Assembly: GCF_029255285.1 (NCBI RefSeq)
Contig: NZ_JAPUVI010000089.1
Location: 62,001 to 126,000, forward strand
Length of the DNA: 64,000 bases
Reading direction: 5' to 3'
Origin: Accumulibacter sp.
GTDB taxonomy: Bacteria > Pseudomonadota > Gammaproteobacteria > Burkholderiales > Rhodocyclaceae
Under the pieces are notes generated by a model. The model was not told the DNA's origin. It did no database searches and worked only from the letters and a program-made list of their open reading frames with translations. Shown here piece by piece: positions 14,442 through 21,537 of this stretch. The position numbers were made by a program, and so were the translations under genes. Numbering within the stretch: position 1 is the first letter of the stretch; every line of letters starts with the position of its first letter.

Positions 14442-17400
14442 TCAATGAAAATCCCGGCTCGCCGTCGGCAAGCGGCCGAGTAGCGGCGAAAGGTCCACGA
14501 GGCGCTTGGCGACCAGATGGACGACTTCGCCCTCGCGCTGTACCTGGCCGAGGACGCCGAGCAGGCGAGCGCCGAGCAGTTCGCGGCGCTGTCTCTCGAC
14601 AAGCCGCGAGTGCACGACGATGTTGGCCAGCCCGGTTTCGTCTTCGAGCGTGACGAAGACGATGCCGCTGGCCGTTCCCGGCCGCTGGCGGCAACTGACG
14701 ATTCCGGCGGCGCGCAGAAGCTGGCGGTCGGGAGCCGTCTGCAGTTGACTGGCGGAAACGAAGCGTTGTGCGGCGAGGCGCTGGCGCAGCAGGGTCAGCG
14801 GATGGCGGCCGAGGGTCAGGCCGGTGCTGGCGTAGTCGGCGATCAGGTTTTCCCCCTCGGATGGCGCGGCGAGTTCGAGCGGGCTTTCCGGTGACGGCGC
14901 GCTGCTCAGCAAATCGAGCTGTACGGCGATTCCGGAGGCGGCCCAGGCCGCTTGCCGACGATGGCCGGCGAGACTGGACAGCGCGTCGGCAGCGGCGAGC
15001 AGGTCGAGATCGCGCTGCGTCAGACGGCTTCGTGTCGCGAGGTCGGCAAGGCTGGCGAAAGGCCGTTGCCGGCGGGCTTCGAGCAGTCGAACGGCGGCCG
15101 TTCGCGACAGGCCGGCGATGCTCGCCAGTCCCAGGCGAACGGCCGGCTGGCCGGCGGCGGCGTCCGGCGCGCTGTTTTCGAGCTTCGCCTCCCAGTCGCT
15201 GGCGCTCGCCGTCACCGGCCGAACGTCGACACCGTGCCGGCGCGCGTCTTGAACCAATTGCGACGGCGAGTAGAAGCCCAGCGGCTGGCTGTTGAGCAGC
15301 GCACAGAGAAAAGCCGCCGCATGGTGGCGCTTGAGCCAGGCCGAGACGTAGACCAGCAAGGCAAATGATGCGGCGTGCGATTCGGGGAAACCGTACTCGC
15401 CGAAGCCCCGAATCTGCGCGAAGATGCGCTGCGCGAAGGCTTCGTCGTGGCCACGCTGGCGCATGCCGGTGATCAGCTTCTGTTCGAAGGGTTCGAGCCC
15501 GCCCTTGCGTCGCCAGGCGGCCATCGCCCGGCGCAACTGGTCGGCTTCGCCGGGGGTGAAACCGGCGGCGACGACGGCCAGTTGCATCACTTGTTCCTGG
15601 AAAATCGGCACGCCGCAGGTGCGGCCGAGGACGGCCTCTATTTCGGGACGCATCGCTTCGCTACGCTCCTTGCCATGGCGGCGGCGCAGGTAGGGGTGCA
15701 CCATGTCGCCCTGAATCGGGCCCGGCCTGACGAGTGCCACTTCGATCACCAGATCGTAGAAGTTGCGCGGCCTGAGGCGCGGTAGCATGGCCATCTGCGC
15801 GCGCGATTCGATCTGGAAGACGCCGACCGTATCGGCGGCGCAGATCATGTCGTAGACCGCCGGGTCTTCTGGCGGAATGTCGGCCAGACGGCAACCGACG
15901 AGATCGAGTGCGCGATGGATCGCCGAGAGCATGCCGAGCGCCAGTACGTCGATCTTCAGCAGGCCGAGGGTATCGAGATCGTCCTTGTCCCATTGGATCA
16001 CGCTACGTTCCGGCATGGCGGCGTTTTCTATCGGTACCAGCCGGCACAGTGGGCCGCGTGCGATGACGAAGCCGCCGACATGCTGCGACAGATGGCGAGG
16101 AAAACCGCGCAGCGCGTCGGTCAGGGCGAGCCATTTGGCGACCCGCGGCGCGGCCGGGTCGAGACCGACGGCGCGCAGGCGGTCGGGGAGTTGGTCGCGC
16201 TTGTCCCACCAGGCCAGCGAGGCGCTCAGTGCGTCGATCTGGGTGCGGCCGAAACCGAGCGCGCGGCCGACGTCGCGCAGTGCTCCGCGTGTCCGGTAGG
16301 TGATGACCGTTGCCGTCAGCGCGGCGCGCTCGCGTCCATATTTGGCGTAAAGATACTGGATCACCTCCTCGCGCCGTTCGTGCTCGAAATCGACGTCGAT
16401 ATCGGGTGGTTCGCCACGTTCCCGGGAGATGAAGCGCTCGAACAGCAGGTTCGAACGTGCCGGATCGACTTCGCTGATGCCGAGGCAGTAACACACGGCG
16501 GAGTTGGCCGCTGAGCCGCGTCCCTGGCACAGAATGTTGCGGCGGCGGGCAAAATTGACGATGTCGTAGACCGTCAGAAAGTAGGGCTCGTAGGCGAGTT
16601 CCTCGATCAGCGAGAGTTCGTGCTCGACGCGTTCGTGCACAGCGGGCGGGACGCCGCCGGGGTAGCGCCGGCGCAGCCCCTGTTCCACTTCGCTGCGCAG
16701 GAAGTCCGACGGCCTCTGGCCGTCCGGAACCACTTCGTCGGGGTACTCGTAGCGTAGTTCGTCGAGCGAGAAATGGCAGCGTGCCGCGACGAGAAGCGTC
16801 TCGGCGAGCAGTTCGAGCGGATAAATCCGCGCCAGCCGCAGGCGCGCGCGCAGGTGGCGCTCGCCGTTGGCGAAGAGTGCGCGTCCGGCAGCGAACAGAG
16901 TGCTGTGCAGGCGGATTGCCGTCAGCGTGTCCTGCAAGGGGCGGCGGGCGCGCAAGTGCATATGCACATCGCCGGCGGCGACGGCCGGCAGGCCGCTCGC
17001 CTGCGCCAGTTCGAGCAGTCTTGCCAGCCGTTGCGCATCGTCGGCTCCCGAGTGAAGTTCGACGGCCAGCCACGAACGATTCGGAAAACGGCTTGCCAGC
17101 CAGCGGCCGTCTGCCGCGCTGGCGCCGACGTCGGCTATCCAGAGTGCCAGGCAGTCCGGCACCGCACCCTGGCCGAAAGCGAAGTGACCGGGCTTTTCGA
17201 AGTCGTTGCGGTACAAGCGGTACTCGCCTTTGGTCGCGCGCCGCCGCGCCAGCGTGATCAGCGCGGACAGGTTGCCGTAACCGGCCCGGTTCTGCGCCAG
17301 AAGCACCAGCCGGAGGCCACCGTCCGGCTCGCCGGCGAGCCGGAACTGGGCGCCGATGAGCAGCTTCAGGCCAAAATCCTTCGCCGCTTTGTGCGCCCGC

Positions 17401-17558
17401 ACGACACCGGCCAGCGAAGCCTCGTCGGTCAGCGCCAGCGCGCTGTAACCCAGCGTCTGCGCCCGTTCGACCAGTTCCTCCGGATGCGACGCGCCACGCA
17501 GGAAGGAGAAGTTGGAGCAGCAGTGCAGTTCGGCGTAAAAGGGGAGGGCGTCGTCCAC
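14442..17558 (-). CDS. dnaE2: Error-prone DNA polymerase DnaE2
   Basis: Alternative C-family polymerase used for SOS-induced translesion synthesis. The 1038-residue length and ELHCCSNFSFLRGASHPEEL start (PHP domain) are typical of DnaE2. GRGSAANSAVCYCLG (about 347-360) and PDIDVDFEHERR (Asp386, Asp388) belong to the polymerase palm, ESHAASFALLVYVSAWLKRH follows, and an OB-fold domain ends the protein. The start is a GTG at 17558; a TATAAT box on this strand lies only 4 bp upstream, so a leaderless transcript or a second promoter is possible. The imuA/imuB genes that often accompany dnaE2 are not adjacent. A LexA-like box overlaps the promoter. Confidence 0.94.
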   Translation of the reverse strand: MDDALPFYAELHCCSNFSFLRGASHPEELVERAQTLGYSALALTDEASLAGVVRAHKAAKDFGLKLLIGAQFRLAGEPDGGLRLVLLAQNRAGYGNLSALITLARRRATKGEYRLYRNDFEKPGHFAFGQGAVPDCLALWIADVGASAADGRWLASRFPNRSWLAVELHSGADDAQRLARLLELAQASGLPAVAAGDVHMHLRARRPLQDTLTAIRLHSTLFAAGRALFANGERHLRARLRLARIYPLELLAETLLVAARCHFSLDELRYEYPDEVVPDGQRPSDFLRSEVEQGLRRRYPGGVPPAVHERVEHELSLIEELAYEPYFLTVYDIVNFARRRNILCQGRGSAANSAVCYCLGISEVDPARSNLLFERFISRERGEPPDIDVDFEHERREEVIQYLYAKYGRERAALTATVITYRTRGALRDVGRALGFGRTQIDALSASLAWWDKRDQLPDRLRAVGLDPAAPRVAKWLALTDALRGFPRHLSQHVGGFVIARGPLCRLVPIENAAMPERSVIQWDKDDLDTLGLLKIDVLALGMLSAIHRALDLVGCRLADIPPEDPAVYDMICAADTVGVFQIESRAQMAMLPRLRPRNFYDLVIEVALVRPGPIQGDMVHPYLRRRHGKERSEAMRPEIEAVLGRTCGVPIFQEQVMQLAVVAAGFTPGEADQLRRAMAAWRRKGGLEPFEQKLITGMRQRGHDEAFAQRIFAQIRGFGEYGFPESHAASFALLVYVSAWLKRHHAAAFLCALLNSQPLGFYSPSQLVQDARRHGVDVRPVTASASDWEAKLENSAPDAAAGQPAVRLGLASIAGLSRTAAVRLLEARRQRPFASLADLATRSRLTQRDLDLLAAADALSSLAGHRRQAAWAASGIAVQLDLLSSAPSPESPLELAAPSEGENLIADYASTGLTLGRHPLTLLRQRLAAQRFVSASQLQTAPDRQLLRAAGIVSCRQRPGTASGIVFVTLEDETGLANIVVHSRLVERQRRELLGARLLGVLGQVQREGEVVHLVAKRLVDLSPLLGRLPTASRDFH

Positions 17559-17740: not shown

Positions 17741-18886
17741 CTATTGCTGTTTCAGGTCGAGTTGCGCGAGGTCGATGCGCTTTCGGTAACCGCGCCAGCG
17801 CAGCCATGCCTTGTGTGACAAGTGCTTGATCAACAGACCCGGCGGCATGCGCAGCCAGTGCGCACGCAGGTACAAAAGCCAGCGGGCGAGGGTCGCCGAA
17901 GGCGACGGGTGGTCCGGATGTCCGGGCAGCAGTGCGAGCGGAATCAGCCGCTTCATGATTTGCCGGACCGGCCAGGCCGGCGCTGCCGCAGCCAGTTCCT
18001 GCAGCACGCCCGGCGGCACCGGGGTGGCGAGCAGTTCTTGCGCCTGCTGCAACCCGTAGAGCAGCGGACGCGTGAAACCCAGTTCGCGCGCGCGCGGCAC
18101 CAAACCCTCCCAGAAGCCCGGCTGCTGGCCGAAATAACCGAGCAGATCATGCACATCGACCAGATCCCGCAGGCGCAGTCCTTCATCGGGATCGCCCTCG
18201 AGAAACAGATGGACCAGCGAGTGGAGCACCATGTCAGCCGGGGCGAGAATGCGCAGGCGCGGGTCGCTGAGCGGCTGGGCGGCGGCAAAGAGCGGCGCGG
18301 GAGCGGACTTGAGGTGACTGGTTTTCGGCAGGAGTCGGTGGTGGATGTCGATTTCCGTGCCTCGTTCCAGGTGCCTGAGGGGCGGAATCTCGTGCATCCA
18401 GACGCGGTAGTAGCGGTCGTCGTAGGGGTCGATCTGGGTTTTGAACCAGCCGCGTGCGCTGAGTCTTTCCTCGATCTCGCCTATCCTGTCCTCGGGCACC
18501 AACAGATCGACGTCGGCGAAGATGCGTCCGCGTGCCGGCGGCAAGTCCGCCAGGAGATAGCCCGTTCCCTTCAGCAAGATCAAGGGTACTTCCATCCCCT
18601 CGAGCGCCCAGAGAATGCGGTTTACCTCCCAGGAAACCAGCGTCCTGCGATGCTCGATGACGTTATGGGCGGCCCTCAGGTGGTCAGCGGCGCGCGGCGG
18701 AACTTTCTCCAGCAGTCCCGCTCGCGACAGTTCGGACTCCAGCCTGCCCAACAGCCTGACGCGCCGGGCGACGCGTAGCAACAACTCCCAATCGGCTGGC
18801 GGCAGGGCGGACAGCTTGTCCGGTGTCCTGAGGGCGTCGAGGAGAAGGCTACGCGCCCGGTAGGTTTCTCTGTTCACTCTAGTCAT
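17741..18886 (-). CDS. Nucleotidyltransferase of the HprK-rel-A cluster
   Basis: A 381-residue protein of the uncharacterised nucleotidyltransferase family (PF14907 type). The motif LLKGTGYLLADL (104-115) followed by ADVDLLV (Asp125, Asp127) supplies the metal-binding aspartates, and GTEIDIHHRL (about 176-185) gives a third. Helical segments fill the C-terminal half. Its start overlaps the kinase stop by 8 bp, so it is the last gene of a tight pqqD-kinase-nucleotidyltransferase operon. Members of this family often sit beside HprK-related kinases and PqqD-like proteins. Substrate and reaction are unknown; transfer of a nucleotide to a protein or small molecule is only inferred from the fold. 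Confidence 0.75.
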   Translation of the reverse strand: MTRVNRETYRARSLLLDALRTPDKLSALPPADWELLLRVARRVRLLGRLESELSRAGLLEKVPPRAADHLRAAHNVIEHRRTLVSWEVNRILWALEGMEVPLILLKGTGYLLADLPPARGRIFADVDLLVPEDRIGEIEERLSARGWFKTQIDPYDDRYYRVWMHEIPPLRHLERGTEIDIHHRLLPKTSHLKSAPAPLFAAAQPLSDPRLRILAPADMVLHSLVHLFLEGDPDEGLRLRDLVDVHDLLGYFGQQPGFWEGLVPRARELGFTRPLLYGLQQAQELLATPVPPGVLQELAAAAPAWPVRQIMKRLIPLALLPGHPDHPSPSATLARWLLYLRAHWLRMPPGLLIKHLSHKAWLRWRGYRKRIDLAQLDLKQQ

Positions 18887-19796
18887 CGACGTCGTTAGAT
18901 AGATCGTCGAGCGCGCTGATCGCCTGGTCGAGATCGGAGTAGACCAGCGAGTAGGAATCGCAACGGCGAACGAGGTCGGCGACGAGTCGAAAAGCGGTTT
19001 CGTCGAGCACCTCGTAGTTGAAAGCGTTGGTCGCGATCATCAGGAAGGCTTGGCTCTTCGGCAACGGTTCGAGCGAGAGCGGCGCGTTGGCGATCCAGCG
19101 TGGGAAAACAAACCAGCGTGGCCGGGCGGTCTCCTGCATTCGCGCGATGCTGTCCGCCGGCGGCCGCACATGCGCCACGGTTCCCTTACGGGTAGCGAGG
19201 AAAGATGGGCCGACGATGGCCTCGGGACGAAAGCGCCTGATCACCTCGATCGACTCGTTCTTGAGTGGAATCAGGCGAGGCAGCGGCAGCAGCATGCCGT
19301 CCTCAGGCCGTAGCAGTCCGAATTCGTCGGACATCAGGCGCCATCCCGAATGGATCAGCGCGGTGCATAGGGTCGATTTGCCGTCACCCGGTGAAGCAGG
19401 AAAGAGCATCGCCCGGCCATGGCGCTCGACTCCTGCCGAATGAAGCATGAGCAGATGATGCGCGCGCGTGGCGACACACCAGTTGATGCCCCATTCCAGG
19501 GCCGGGAAAGCGTGTTCGGCGGCGTAGGGAGCGAAAGGCGATTGTCCGTCTACGGTAAAACATGCTTGGCGTCGCAGCCAGCGGCGCAGTCCGCGCGGGC
19601 GGCTGATGCCAACGTGAAAGTCGGTTATTTCGCCCGTCTCGGGCAACGGATAGGGTTGGTAAAGCCGATGGACGAGTGAGGAAAGCGATGCCAGATCGGA
19701 GCGAATCCTGAGATGGAAGGGGCCGAAGCGGACGACGAGACCGGTGCCGGCCAATCGCCGTTCGATTTCCCGGCGACTCAGGTCACCGACGATCAT
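18879..19796 (-). CDS. HprK-related kinase A
   Basis: A 305-residue protein related to the C-terminal kinase domain of HPr kinase/phosphorylase. The Walker A loop is SPGDGKST (Lys140), preceded by LHSAGVERHG with a His at 119 placed like the conserved His of HprK, and followed by LMSDEFGLL with Asp157 and Glu158. A normal HPr/PTS partner is not encoded nearby, so HPr itself is an unlikely substrate. I recall this family as HprK-related kinase A of the 'HPr-rel-A system'. Its ATG overlaps the pqqD-like stop (ATGA) and its stop overlaps the nucleotidyltransferase start. The phosphorylation target is unknown. Confidence 0.82.
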   Translation of the reverse strand: MIVGDLSRREIERRLAGTGLVVRFGPFHLRIRSDLASLSSLVHRLYQPYPLPETGEITDFHVGISRPRGLRRWLRRQACFTVDGQSPFAPYAAEHAFPALEWGINWCVATRAHHLLMLHSAGVERHGRAMLFPASPGDGKSTLCTALIHSGWRLMSDEFGLLRPEDGMLLPLPRLIPLKNESIEVIRRFRPEAIVGPSFLATRKGTVAHVRPPADSIARMQETARPRWFVFPRWIANAPLSLEPLPKSQAFLMIATNAFNYEVLDETAFRLVADLVRRCDSYSLVYSDLDQAISALDDLSNDVDD

Positions 19797-20086
19797 TGAC
19801 CGGCAACGACGTCATCCAGGCGCTCGATGAGGCCGAGTTCCTCGATCCGCGCCATGGCGAAGGCGAGATCATCCGCGTCGAGATCCTCAGTGGCGATGCC
19901 AAGCTCGCTCGCCGTGAACTCCCTCAGTTCATCGAGCGACTTCGCGCTCTGCTCGAGTCCTCTCAGGATCAATGCCGTAGTCTCGTTGAAGACGTGCGTT
20001 TCCGCAGAGGAGGGCTGGTAGACGATGAACACGTCATCCCATTTCTGCCAGCTCAGCTCGTGACCGGCTCGCGTCAGGGCAATCAC
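19793..20086 (-). CDS. PqqD-family peptide-binding protein
   Basis: A 97-residue protein with the PqqD-like winged-helix pattern: SWQKWDDVFIVYQPSSAETH (13-31) then VFNETTALILRGLEQS and an acidic C-terminal helix. PqqD-type domains bind leader peptides and present them to modifying enzymes in RiPP pathways. It is first in the operon and overlaps the kinase by 4 bp. The start is a GTG at 20086 with no obvious Shine-Dalgarno; no ATG is available upstream in frame. The linked kinase and nucleotidyltransferase suggest the 'HPr-rel-A system PqqD' group. Confidence 0.8.
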   Translation of the reverse strand: MIALTRAGHELSWQKWDDVFIVYQPSSAETHVFNETTALILRGLEQSAKSLDELREFTASELGIATEDLDADDLAFAMARIEELGLIERLDDVVAGQ

Positions 20087-20328
20087 GATGTGGCCAGGGA
20101 AGGGGAAGGATTGGCCGACGGGAACACAGCACGCGATGCTCTATTGGCTTGCCAAGGGTTTTGAGCGAGCAGGCCGGACATTCCTCGCGCGCACATGGCG
20201 CAGGCTCTGCCGGACCAGCCAGGCCGGCCTGAGAGCCGCTGCACAGCGAACCGCCGGTCCGAGTCTGTCTGTTCCCCCATTACCGCATGCGCCGAAATCG
20301 CGAATCTATCACAGTTTCGCTCGCCGGA

Positions 20329-20350
20329 TCGAACAGTGTCGGCTGTTCGA
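20329..20350. promoter_or_regulatory. Inverted repeat upstream of the PqqD operon
   Basis: TCGAACAG-N6-CTGTTCGA is a perfect 8-bp dyad inside the otherwise gene-free stretch 20087-20485, between the small secreted-protein gene and the PqqD operon. On the minus strand a weak -35/-10-like pair (TTCGAT, 17 bp, GATAGA) overlaps its outer half. It could be an operator or a transcript hairpin; there is no T run behind it. Nothing else was recognised in the 399-bp gap. Confidence 0.4.
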
Positions 20351-20485
20351 GTCAGGGACCCGACGGCATCGAGACGCGTTCAAGCGCCGCTTGCGCCGAC
20401 GCTCTTGCGAACGGCGGGTAGCCGCTTGGCGTCCGTTGGCGCGGGGGGAAGGAAAGATAAAGGCGGCGCTGCTCGGTGGCGAGAC

Positions 20486-21025
20486 CTAGCCGGCGTTGAT
20501 CAGTGACGTTGCGCTGGCCGAACTCAGGATCGCAATGTTCTGATTACGGAAGTCGGCCGGCCCACGGAGCGGGTCGCCCGACGGGGTACCACAATAATAA
20601 TTGGTTCCACCACCCGAGCCGGTGCGATAGACATGTATGCTTTGGTCATTCATGTCCTGGGTGCTGATCTTGTCGACCATCGAGGTATCCGGGCAACTGT
20701 CTATGTTCTTGAAGCAGTAATCCGGAGTGCTTGGATTGTCGTTCGAACCGATCAAGCCGCTTCGGATACGGTCGCCACCAACCGTCTCGATTCTCCCGCG
20801 GTCGTCGGTCGTGGCGGCACGGATCTTCGTGCCGGTACACGAGGCTGCCGCCAGCGCACCGCTGCGCAAAGTCAACACCAAGGGCGCGAAAGCCGCTGCG
20901 CCACGAACCAGCCGCCGCCGGCGTTGGTCCAGTGTCGAACCCCCGTCTGCGCTGGCGGGGTCACCACCAGCGAGCGCCAAATCGGTCGCTTGCCCCGCCT
21001 CGTCGATTGCTTCCGTTCGTCTCAT
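20486..21025 (-). CDS. Small Cys-containing protein with Arg-rich leader
   Basis: I do not recognise a named family. From the ATG at 21025, which follows a GGAGAG ribosome-binding site 8 nt away, the protein has 179 residues. The first 34 are polar. Then RRRRLVRG (35-42) leads into a hydrophobic stretch AAAFAPLVLTL and SGALAAASC, resembling a twin-arginine-like export signal with a cleavage or lipidation point near Cys63. The remainder is Ser/Thr/Asn/Gly-rich with Cys63, Cys104, Cys111 and Cys145. The frame is open further upstream (to 21175), but the longer form lacks a ribosome-binding site. It lies on the same strand as, and 399 bp upstream of, the PqqD/kinase/nucleotidyltransferase operon, so it is a candidate substrate of that system. 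Confidence 0.6.
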   Translation of the reverse strand: MRRTEAIDEAGQATDLALAGGDPASADGGSTLDQRRRRLVRGAAAFAPLVLTLRSGALAAASCTGTKIRAATTDDRGRIETVGGDRIRSGLIGSNDNPSTPDYCFKNIDSCPDTSMVDKISTQDMNDQSIHVYRTGSGGGTNYYCGTPSGDPLRGPADFRNQNIAILSSASATSLINAG

Positions 21026-21537
21026 CTTTGCCGCTCTCCAAAAATTCCGACCCGGGTCTCGGTGTTTCCAAGCCAGTTCCTGCGTCTGTTCGCGCTCCCT
21101 GCGCACTCCGTCTGTCGACCTGCAAGACGGTTTTCGCGGACTCGTCGTTCTGGTGACCGATGACTGATTCACCATCGTGGATGTTAGCCTTTACAACGCA
21201 GAGGGCCTGCGAAGTAAGTCACGGTGCGGACCAGAAATCACAAGTCGTTCGAGTGCTCCTACGGTAGCGCGATTGGCACCGCCGAATCACAGTCCAACAA
21301 TGATTAGCAAATTCTATACCAGTCCCATGGAACAAACAAAGTGCTCGCTAAAGCAATGGTTTGCAATTTTCTACCCGATCCTTGGCGGGGTTGTCCACAC
21401 GGTAGTGTAAAAAAAACCGACATCCTCGTAGTGGCCGTTCCGGCTGGTCCCAGCACCCGTGCCGGGATCGATTCGGGAGTCGCGCGGCACTTTTCCGGCA
21501 ATTCGACAAATCGACCGCCCGACCGCGGGAAGTTCCC
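21026..21537. other. Gene-free stretch between glnD and the secreted-protein gene
   Basis: The 512 bp hold no convincing gene and are less GC-rich than their surroundings. On the minus strand an extended -10 (TGG TATAGA, plus coordinates 21313-21321) could start a transcript with a leader of about 280 nt into the gene at 21025. An A8 run at 21409-21416 (T8 on the minus strand) and a small hairpin GCTGG-TC-CCAGC at 21443-21454 lie behind glnD, but they are 26 bp apart and do not form a standard terminator. Confidence 0.4.

Follow-up and report, generated by a model that had tools for sequence, protein, structure and literature searches.

HPr-rel-A, a system named in family databases without a known product, is represented in the window analysed here (64,000 nt of Accumulibacter sp. 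DNA; contig NZ_JAPUVI010000089.1, positions 62,001 to 126,000) by a locus that is better described as four genes. All four lie on the minus strand: a gene for a PqqD-like protein of the RiPP recognition element type (RiPP, ribosomally synthesized and post-translationally modified peptide; TIGR04353, 19793..20086, 97 aa, GTG start), an HprK-related kinase A gene (TIGR04352, 18879..19796, 305 aa), a nucleotidyltransferase gene (PF14907, 17741..18886, 381 aa) and a fourth gene (20486..21025, 179 aa) for a putative precursor, with a hydrophilic n-region, a signal resembling those of the twin-arginine translocation (Tat) pathway and a variable body. Its sequence features make this fourth protein the probable substrate of the enzymes. 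We consider it fairly probable that the four genes form a cassette for tailoring and exporting a peptide or protein, with the product of the fourth gene as precursor, and HPr-rel-A thereby gains a concrete candidate substrate for testing. An earlier note, made from the letters of this DNA, had described a three-gene operon; the triad is real, and the fourth gene, its likely substrate, was missed. The modified peptide or protein proposed in that note is supported by the fourth gene and by the match of the PqqD-like family to lasso leader-binding proteins, the chemistry being one that we infer.

The three open reading frames (ORFs) stand on the minus strand where the earlier note had placed them, overlapping by 4 bp (PqqD-like/kinase) and 8 bp (kinase/nucleotidyltransferase), and hidden Markov model searches assigned them to the expected families above the curated cut-offs, with 408.2 bits for the kinase against TIGR04352 (cut-off 200), 59.3 bits for the PqqD-like protein against TIGR04353 (cut-off 35) and 192.5 bits for the nucleotidyltransferase against PF14907 (cut-off 31.2). 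The general Pfam PqqD model scored 14.7 on the PqqD-like protein, under its cut-off of 23.4. The name HPr-rel-A given in the earlier note was thus right for the kinase and the PqqD-like protein, which this name covers; the fourth gene lies outside the named families. The residues described as intact, Lys140 of the kinase and Asp125/Asp127 of the nucleotidyltransferase, proved invariant in the related loci described below. The invariant residues of the kinase include His119, Lys140-Ser141-Thr142 and Asp157-Glu158, in 54 sequences after omission of the truncated kinase of locus L058, as well as Gly139, Lys179 and Lys204; those of the nucleotidyltransferase include Lys106-Gly107, Asp125-x-Asp127 (52 sequences), Asp180 and His182-His183.

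The possibility of a true HPr kinase was rejected, as the window kinase matches no Pfam family at E ≤ 0.1 and has no linked HPr. Its likeness to HPr kinase/phosphorylase consists of a match of the kinase profile to HprK structures around the P-loop (E 6e-4), and it differs in having Asp-Glu where the genome's own HprK has Asp-Asp. The sole Pfam HPr-kinase match of the genome is on contig C104 and the sole HPr match on C2; the window is on C89, in agreement with the earlier statement that no HPr gene is near. The nearest kinases are those of Candidatus Accumulibacter and its kin.

To follow the triad beyond the window, we used 55 loci (the window, 28 from named genome records and 26 from other genomes of the same class) and a survey of 274 whole genomes of that class. 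One of the relatives, Dechloromonas denitrificans (L050), is culturable. In 53 of the 55 loci, a PqqD-like ORF terminates where the kinase gene begins, according to a profile built from 23 of the loci on which it was run (52 at E ≤ 1e-3 and L047 at 0.006); that of L053 was recognized by eye, and at L054 this place is occupied by a run of N. The co-occurrence of the triad is not due to chance: the nucleotidyltransferase lies near the kinase in 52/55 loci, and the three others are limited by contig ends (L058 and L081 stop at the kinase, and the upstream sequence of L043 amounts to just 600 bases). In the genome survey, a kinase above the TIGR04352 cut-off was found in 27 genomes, with PF14907 beside it in 26 and a contig end cutting the last. 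Neither of the outcomes that the earlier note had named as contradicting it, families that fail to co-occur or a true HPr kinase with a linked HPr, was therefore observed.

The fourth gene was detected with a profile of the signal built from 35 loci, the window excluded, and run over the 11,272 six-frame ORFs of the 55 loci; a first regular expression, which missed 20 of the 55 loci including the window, had been discarded in its favor. One ORF at E < 1e-5 was obtained in each of 50 loci, always just 5′ of the PqqD-kinase pair, and the next best match had an E of 0.015. These 50 loci comprise the 35 that built the profile and 15, the window among them, that did not. With three more found by eye (L059, L063, and L069), the fourth gene is present in cis, at the same place, in 53/55 loci. 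At the two exceptions, the contig of L080 begins 586 bases before the kinase match, and Sphingopyxis L057 has a homologue on another contig (54% identity with the Sphingomonas parapaucimobilis fourth protein in 127 aligned columns). The window's own genome holds just one convincing copy. Run over the 274 genomes, signal profile A8 reached E < 1e-9 in 27 of them, and every such match adjoined a kinase, which is above the TIGR04352 cut-off in 25 of them and below it in two (G101 and G184); many of these loci helped build the profile, so that this result shows specificity, not discovery. Profile A8 missed the fourth gene of G107.

The longest frame for the window's fourth gene encodes 229 aa (20486-21175), and two observations favor the ATG at 21025 as its start, the starts of the gene in close relatives and agreement with AGGAGG at 4 of 6 positions. 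At E ≤ 0.1, neither Pfam nor NCBIfam gave a family for the protein, and 51 fourth proteins scanned against the libraries returned nothing beyond single-member hits, three Tat-signal models and otherwise weak strays. Among plasmids, five records were found to hold a kinase-like match, and four of them were examined. On three plasmids that do not belong to the 55 loci, two from Vibrio alfacsensis and one from Sphingomonas parapaucimobilis, the position of the fourth gene is annotated 'hypothetical protein'; the Vibrio alfacsensis protein matches profile A8 (E 1.2e-11), and that of Sphingomonas parapaucimobilis was missed by the profile and seen by eye. In a Methylosinus plasmid record with a divergent kinase, no signal peptide, PqqD-like gene or nucleotidyltransferase was found in 12.5 kb. 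On a Vibrio alfacsensis plasmid (L132:5733-6018), an unannotated ORF between the hypothetical protein and the HprK-related kinase looks PqqD-like by position and by eye and was missed by profile A7.

The fourth proteins share a layout of about 20-40 hydrophilic residues, a twin-arginine, a short hydrophobic stretch, an A-x-A-like site and a widely varying body. The hydrophobic stretch holds a core, 'P.[VIL][LM]T', that is unusual for a Tat-like signal. In the window protein, the Tat-like signal RRRRLVRGAAAFAPLVLTLRSGALAAA covers residues 35-61 (20843..20923, minus strand), with a proposed docking core around Pro48 in AAFAPLV, where Pro and Val are retained and no aromatic residue occupies Pro-3. 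It is followed by Ser62 (Pro48+14; 20840..20842), the proposed phospho-acceptor at the start of the mature protein, whose position is at least 90% conserved in alignment A2. Among ten close relatives, identity is 89-96% in the signal and 32-45% in the body, with 70-84% for the kinase and 72-81% for the nucleotidyltransferase. In the six relatives whose signal is as long as that of the window, 11-17 of the 13-22 signal differences fall at third codon positions. On these sequences, a conserved signal with a variable body resembles the leader and core of a RiPP.

Twin arginines are present in 51/51 precursors, and Arg36-Arg37 is invariant in the 23 proteins of alignment A2. The window protein has the features expected of a Tat substrate, a twin-arginine followed by a hydrophobic stretch and A-x-A, and L082 and L084 fit exactly the SRRxFLK twin-arginine consensus quoted in passages of PMC3712460. 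The RR motif thus suggests that the fourth protein would be exported by Tat. The presence of tatC in the window's genome and of TatC in 32/32 genomes checked is weak evidence for this route because Tat is common.

Two types of cargo were distinguished. Type I is the cargo of the window, Accumulibacter, Competibacter and others, and frequently has [ATSN]-S-[LIMF] at its end. This C-terminal motif occurs in 19/52 proteins, where 500 shuffles gave 2.9 on average and never more than 10; the 19 include one type II protein, and 11 of them come from the window and its ten close relatives. In the window it places Ser174 (20504..20506, minus strand), in the C-terminal A-T-S-L motif, as an alternative candidate acceptor. 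Type II (28 proteins) shows 'C..S...S' after the signal and includes the SGN-type motif (15/52 proteins, shuffle mean 0.2). Its body, predicted to be helical, shows the patterns 'PG[YF]W' and 'AALLNA'. When one type II protein was modelled, block-mean pLDDT (predicted local distance difference test) values were 79-95 over residues 71-90 and 101-210 and low over residues 91-100. No PDB match under E 0.001 indicated a known fold for this body, and a sequence-profile match to steryl-sulfatase reached E 0.006. The type II body domain by itself also has matches, with no signal and away from the kinase, in other frames of 207-1352 aa, some much larger (G015:C37, G099:C48, G215:C152, G080:C1, G084:C6, and G249:C1:3747094).

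These bodies bear on an alternative in which the cassette loads a nucleotide-type prosthetic group on a Tat-exported protein with its own periplasmic function, the kinase and nucleotidyltransferase building the cofactor and the PqqD-like protein acting as a loading chaperone, with no RiPP-like product. The length of 46/51 precursors, 145-265 aa, and the helical domain predicted with fair to high confidence in type II would suit it, as would the nucleotidyltransferase. The model of this enzyme (mean pLDDT 91.7) has ANT(2'')-Ia as its nearest solved fold (E 1.7e-3) and a weaker likeness to FKRP, which we take to be a ribitol-phosphate transferase; on this model, the group transferred may be nucleotidyl, sugar or sugar-phosphate. 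Against this, the L075 cargo is a protein of 74 aa with a tail of 12 residues behind its signal, ending in ..CNASLI, and L043, whose gene start lies beyond the contig edge, keeps about 18 residues after the signal with SGNMS. Moreover, the bodies change fast while the signal and enzymes are kept, and a docking-like motif occurs in short peptides. We regard prosthetic-group loading as unlikely.

The cargo types cluster on the kinase tree, where the three groups require 2 changes and shuffling gave 21.1 on average, a contrast that near copies inflate. L102 and the truncated L058 are not in this tree, and its unlabelled members are L045, L057, and several divergent kinases. Together with the adjacency in 53/55 loci, this tracking of the kinase argues against the enzymes modifying another component, such as an HPr-like regulator or an exopolysaccharide part, next to a merely co-regulated exported protein. 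The HprK-like P-loop region of the kinase and the epimerases or glycosyltransferases near some loci could be read that way, but the HPr and HprK matches lie elsewhere in the genome and no Pfam family is common among the neighbors. From 232 ORFs of 29 loci, 159 were hand-picked, mostly omitting very long frames and four-gene overlaps, and scanned against Pfam; among the 25 most frequent families per set, no family exceeded 5/88 and 3/71, and a further conserved neighbor gene was rejected. The most frequent family is trypsin-like, and the L041 and L044 proteases resembling DegP are probably counted in it. We therefore judge modification of another component to be very improbable. A DegP-like protease gene lies near the cassette in the Competibacter-type genomes L041, L042, and L044.

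Support for a four-gene tailoring and export cassette also comes from characterized systems. The PqqD-like family profile matches the lasso leader-binding proteins TfuB1 (E 0.0013) and TbiB1 (E 0.023). Passages of PMC9266682 on paeninodin and pseudomycoidin tailoring provide precedents in PadeK, PsmK and PsmN: PadeK is reported to phosphorylate a C-terminal Ser, and PsmN, a nucleotidyltransferase homologue, to install a hexose on phospho-Ser, a host glycosyltransferase not being excluded. An HprK-like kinase acting on Ser, a nucleotidyltransferase homologue and a B1 leader-binding protein are thus shared; as these passages describe it, the acceptor there is the C-terminal Ser, and the window genome differs in having no PF13471 match. 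A lasso cluster was rejected, with 0 matches to PF13471 in the genome at E ≤ 0.001; this family is presumably that of the lasso (B2) leader peptidase. A macrolactam synthetase (C protein) was not among the five flanking genes scanned, the rest of the genome not having been searched, and the asparagine-synthase family occurs in 1/71 neighbors of the relatives.

A closer parallel is given by the linear polyphosphorylated peptide (LPP) clusters of Bacillota, described in 2026 (PMC13381572), in which a discrete leader-binding protein goes together with an NTP transferase and a kinase of HprK type, a combination also present in the window. In the passages concerned, LPP precursors are of 35-200 aa, the leader motif is YxxPxVLxHQxIxFETxxS, the docking motif is [Y/W]xxPx[L/V/I/F/A], and LppK phosphorylates core Ser3 (PMC13381572). 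By our count, this Ser3 is the last S of the leader motif, at P+15 (docking Pro as P). Shared features thus include a precursor with a conserved N-terminal and a variable C-terminal part and a Ser shortly after the docking motif. As far as these passages go, LPP clusters have a dedicated SipW-like leader peptidase and an MsbA-like transporter, whereas here a Tat-like signal would be the leader, the cargos reach 265 aa and the phyla are others. The words twin-arginine, Tat, Proteobacteria and Pseudomonadota are absent from the main text of PMC13381572. A SipW-like peptidase or MsbA-like exporter was neither among the five flanking window genes scanned nor among the 25 most frequent Pfam families per neighbor set (159 proteins), no genome-wide search having been made. 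The cassette may therefore work like the LPP and paeninodin tailoring triads, by analogy, and differ from them in its leader, probable export route, cargo size and phyla.

For the signal, passages of PMC3712460 and PMC3316669 describe cytoplasmic chaperones, NapD, DmsD and TorD, that bind twin-arginine signals and are thought to restrain export until maturation. Their clients, as described there, are redox enzymes, whereas here a PqqD-like protein would bind the signal. To our knowledge, NapD, DmsD and TorD lie outside the PqqD family. Taken together, the lasso B1 match, the LPP and PadeK precedents and the Tat-signal chaperones fit a leader that is also an export signal.

In the scheme that we infer for binding, phosphorylation site, capping chemistry, Tat route and biological role, the fourth gene would encode a precursor with an N-terminal Tat-like signal that serves as leader too. 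The PqqD-like protein would dock on the Pro-containing hydrophobic core of the signal and hand the precursor to the kinase, and could hold back export in the way that maturation chaperones of redox enzymes act on other Tat signals. In the cargo, a conserved Ser would be phosphorylated by the HprK-like kinase; the Ser where the mature protein starts is the most likely site, and in type I one near the C-terminus is possible. The nucleotidyltransferase may then cap the phosphoserine with a nucleotidyl or sugar(-phosphate) group. The finished product would leave through Tat with signal peptidase cleavage.

Profile A8 also gave 39 weaker matches, ten of which, hand-picked for short frames or a nearby kinase, were examined. 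Nine are short peptides and one (G133) is unconvincing. Those of L107, L108, and L109 have a divergent kinase beside them, together with genes for a PqqD-like protein and a PF14907 protein; the other six have no kinase in the stretch taken. With two peptides of L099 and one of L100 included, and that of L113 dropped as a copy of one in L112, a type III set of 11 was obtained. The 13 kb of L099 contain neither a PqqD-like nor a nucleotidyltransferase gene, and in the 8.4 kb of L100 the latter is missing. All 11 peptides carry [YF]xxPx[VIL], the docking motif published for lasso and LPP leader-binding proteins, in the hydrophobic part, eight of them being absent from profile A8, and all have a Ser at P+16 or P+17; a wider docking pattern occurs anywhere in just 4/44 profile A8 rows. 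Because the profile rewards Pro, only the aromatic residue counts as an independent feature of the motif. Short Tat-like [YF]xxP peptides with no kinase in the stretch taken were seen at L106, L110, L111, L112, and L113; L106, L110, and L111 have a kinase locus elsewhere in the same genome, suggesting substrates in trans. At L121:1562-2821, a 418-aa protein apparently has a PqqD-like domain fused N-terminally to an HprK-related kinase.

Several observations weigh against a tailoring cassette with a leader that is also a Tat signal. The docking aromatic of LPP is found in 0/52 type I and II signals, that of the window included; therefore their recognition mode would have to differ from that of LPP. 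A Ser at P+13..+17, present in 22/22 type I rows, occurs in just 12/30 rows of the type II group, to which all proteins outside the type I list were assigned, among them L045. The aligned Pro is missing in 8/30 rows of this group and in 1/22 type I rows, as counted by eye because the scripted anchor was wrong for L056, L048, L050, L051, L059, L061, L062, L063, and L069. A short peptide accompanies 5/15 divergent-kinase loci (L099, L100, L107, L108, and L109) and was not seen nearby at the other ten, some of these stretches being short; one of the ten, L101, is doubtful, and the rest are L028, L102, L103, L116, L119, L121, L122, L123, and L134. PF14907 at E ≤ 1e-8 occurs in 49/274 genomes, 23 of them without an above-cut-off kinase, and is thus not confined to this system. 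Finally, loss of LppN had no visible effect in the heterologous system described in passages of PMC13381572.

The Tat assignment meets its own difficulties. The Tat-signal models of NCBIfam and Pfam gave 0 families at E ≤ 0.1 on the window protein; TIGR01409 matches 2/51 precursors at this threshold and TIGR02811 1/23, and PF10518 matches 1/23 proteins of alignment A2 and 0/28 of A1. The stricter [ST]RR.[FL].K is matched by just 11/51 precursors, and the window signal contains four arginines in a row. These results would suit the same cassette with a signal that is used by Sec or left uncleaved, the arginines serving docking and not Tat targeting, a variant that overlaps the reading proposed here. 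The RR of every precursor and the exact SRRxFLK fits of L082 and L084 speak against it, and we consider it improbable.

More widely, the tailoring and export cassette could belong to a broad RiPP-like class in Pseudomonadota and Planctomycetota, a generalization that we put forward tentatively, at slightly less than even confidence. In this class, the Tat signal would be the leader, the leader-binding protein would be both RiPP recognition element and export proofreader, and phosphoserine-capped products, from peptides of about 15 residues to folded domains of 200 residues, would be exported finished. If true, RiPP leader recognition would become linked with Tat export control, tailoring by HprK-type kinases, described for small lasso and LPP peptides, would extend to entire exported proteins in other phyla, and a set of fast-evolving 'hypothetical proteins' would be explained. 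In the open-access papers searched, we did not meet HPr-rel-A, an HprK-related kinase under that name, PF14907, HprK together with PqqD and a nucleotidyltransferase, or a Tat-signal precursor with a RiPP recognition element and kinase; subscription journals and the comments of TIGR curators, outside this scope, may note a link to a Tat-type substrate.

No Rfam match at gathering cut-offs was found near the operon, and one promoter-like and one terminator-like site did not stand above shuffles. The fourth gene is separated from the PqqD-like gene by a 399-bp spacer (20087-20485), in which repeats were looked for and none found. The resulting distance of 690 nt between the fourth gene and the kinase is the longest among 51 measured loci (next 555). 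The flanking genes are ordinary, with RimO and an error-prone DNA polymerase on one side and GlnD, methionine aminopeptidase and RpsB on the other; the polymerase gene (14442-17558) lies directly downstream of the cassette on the same strand.

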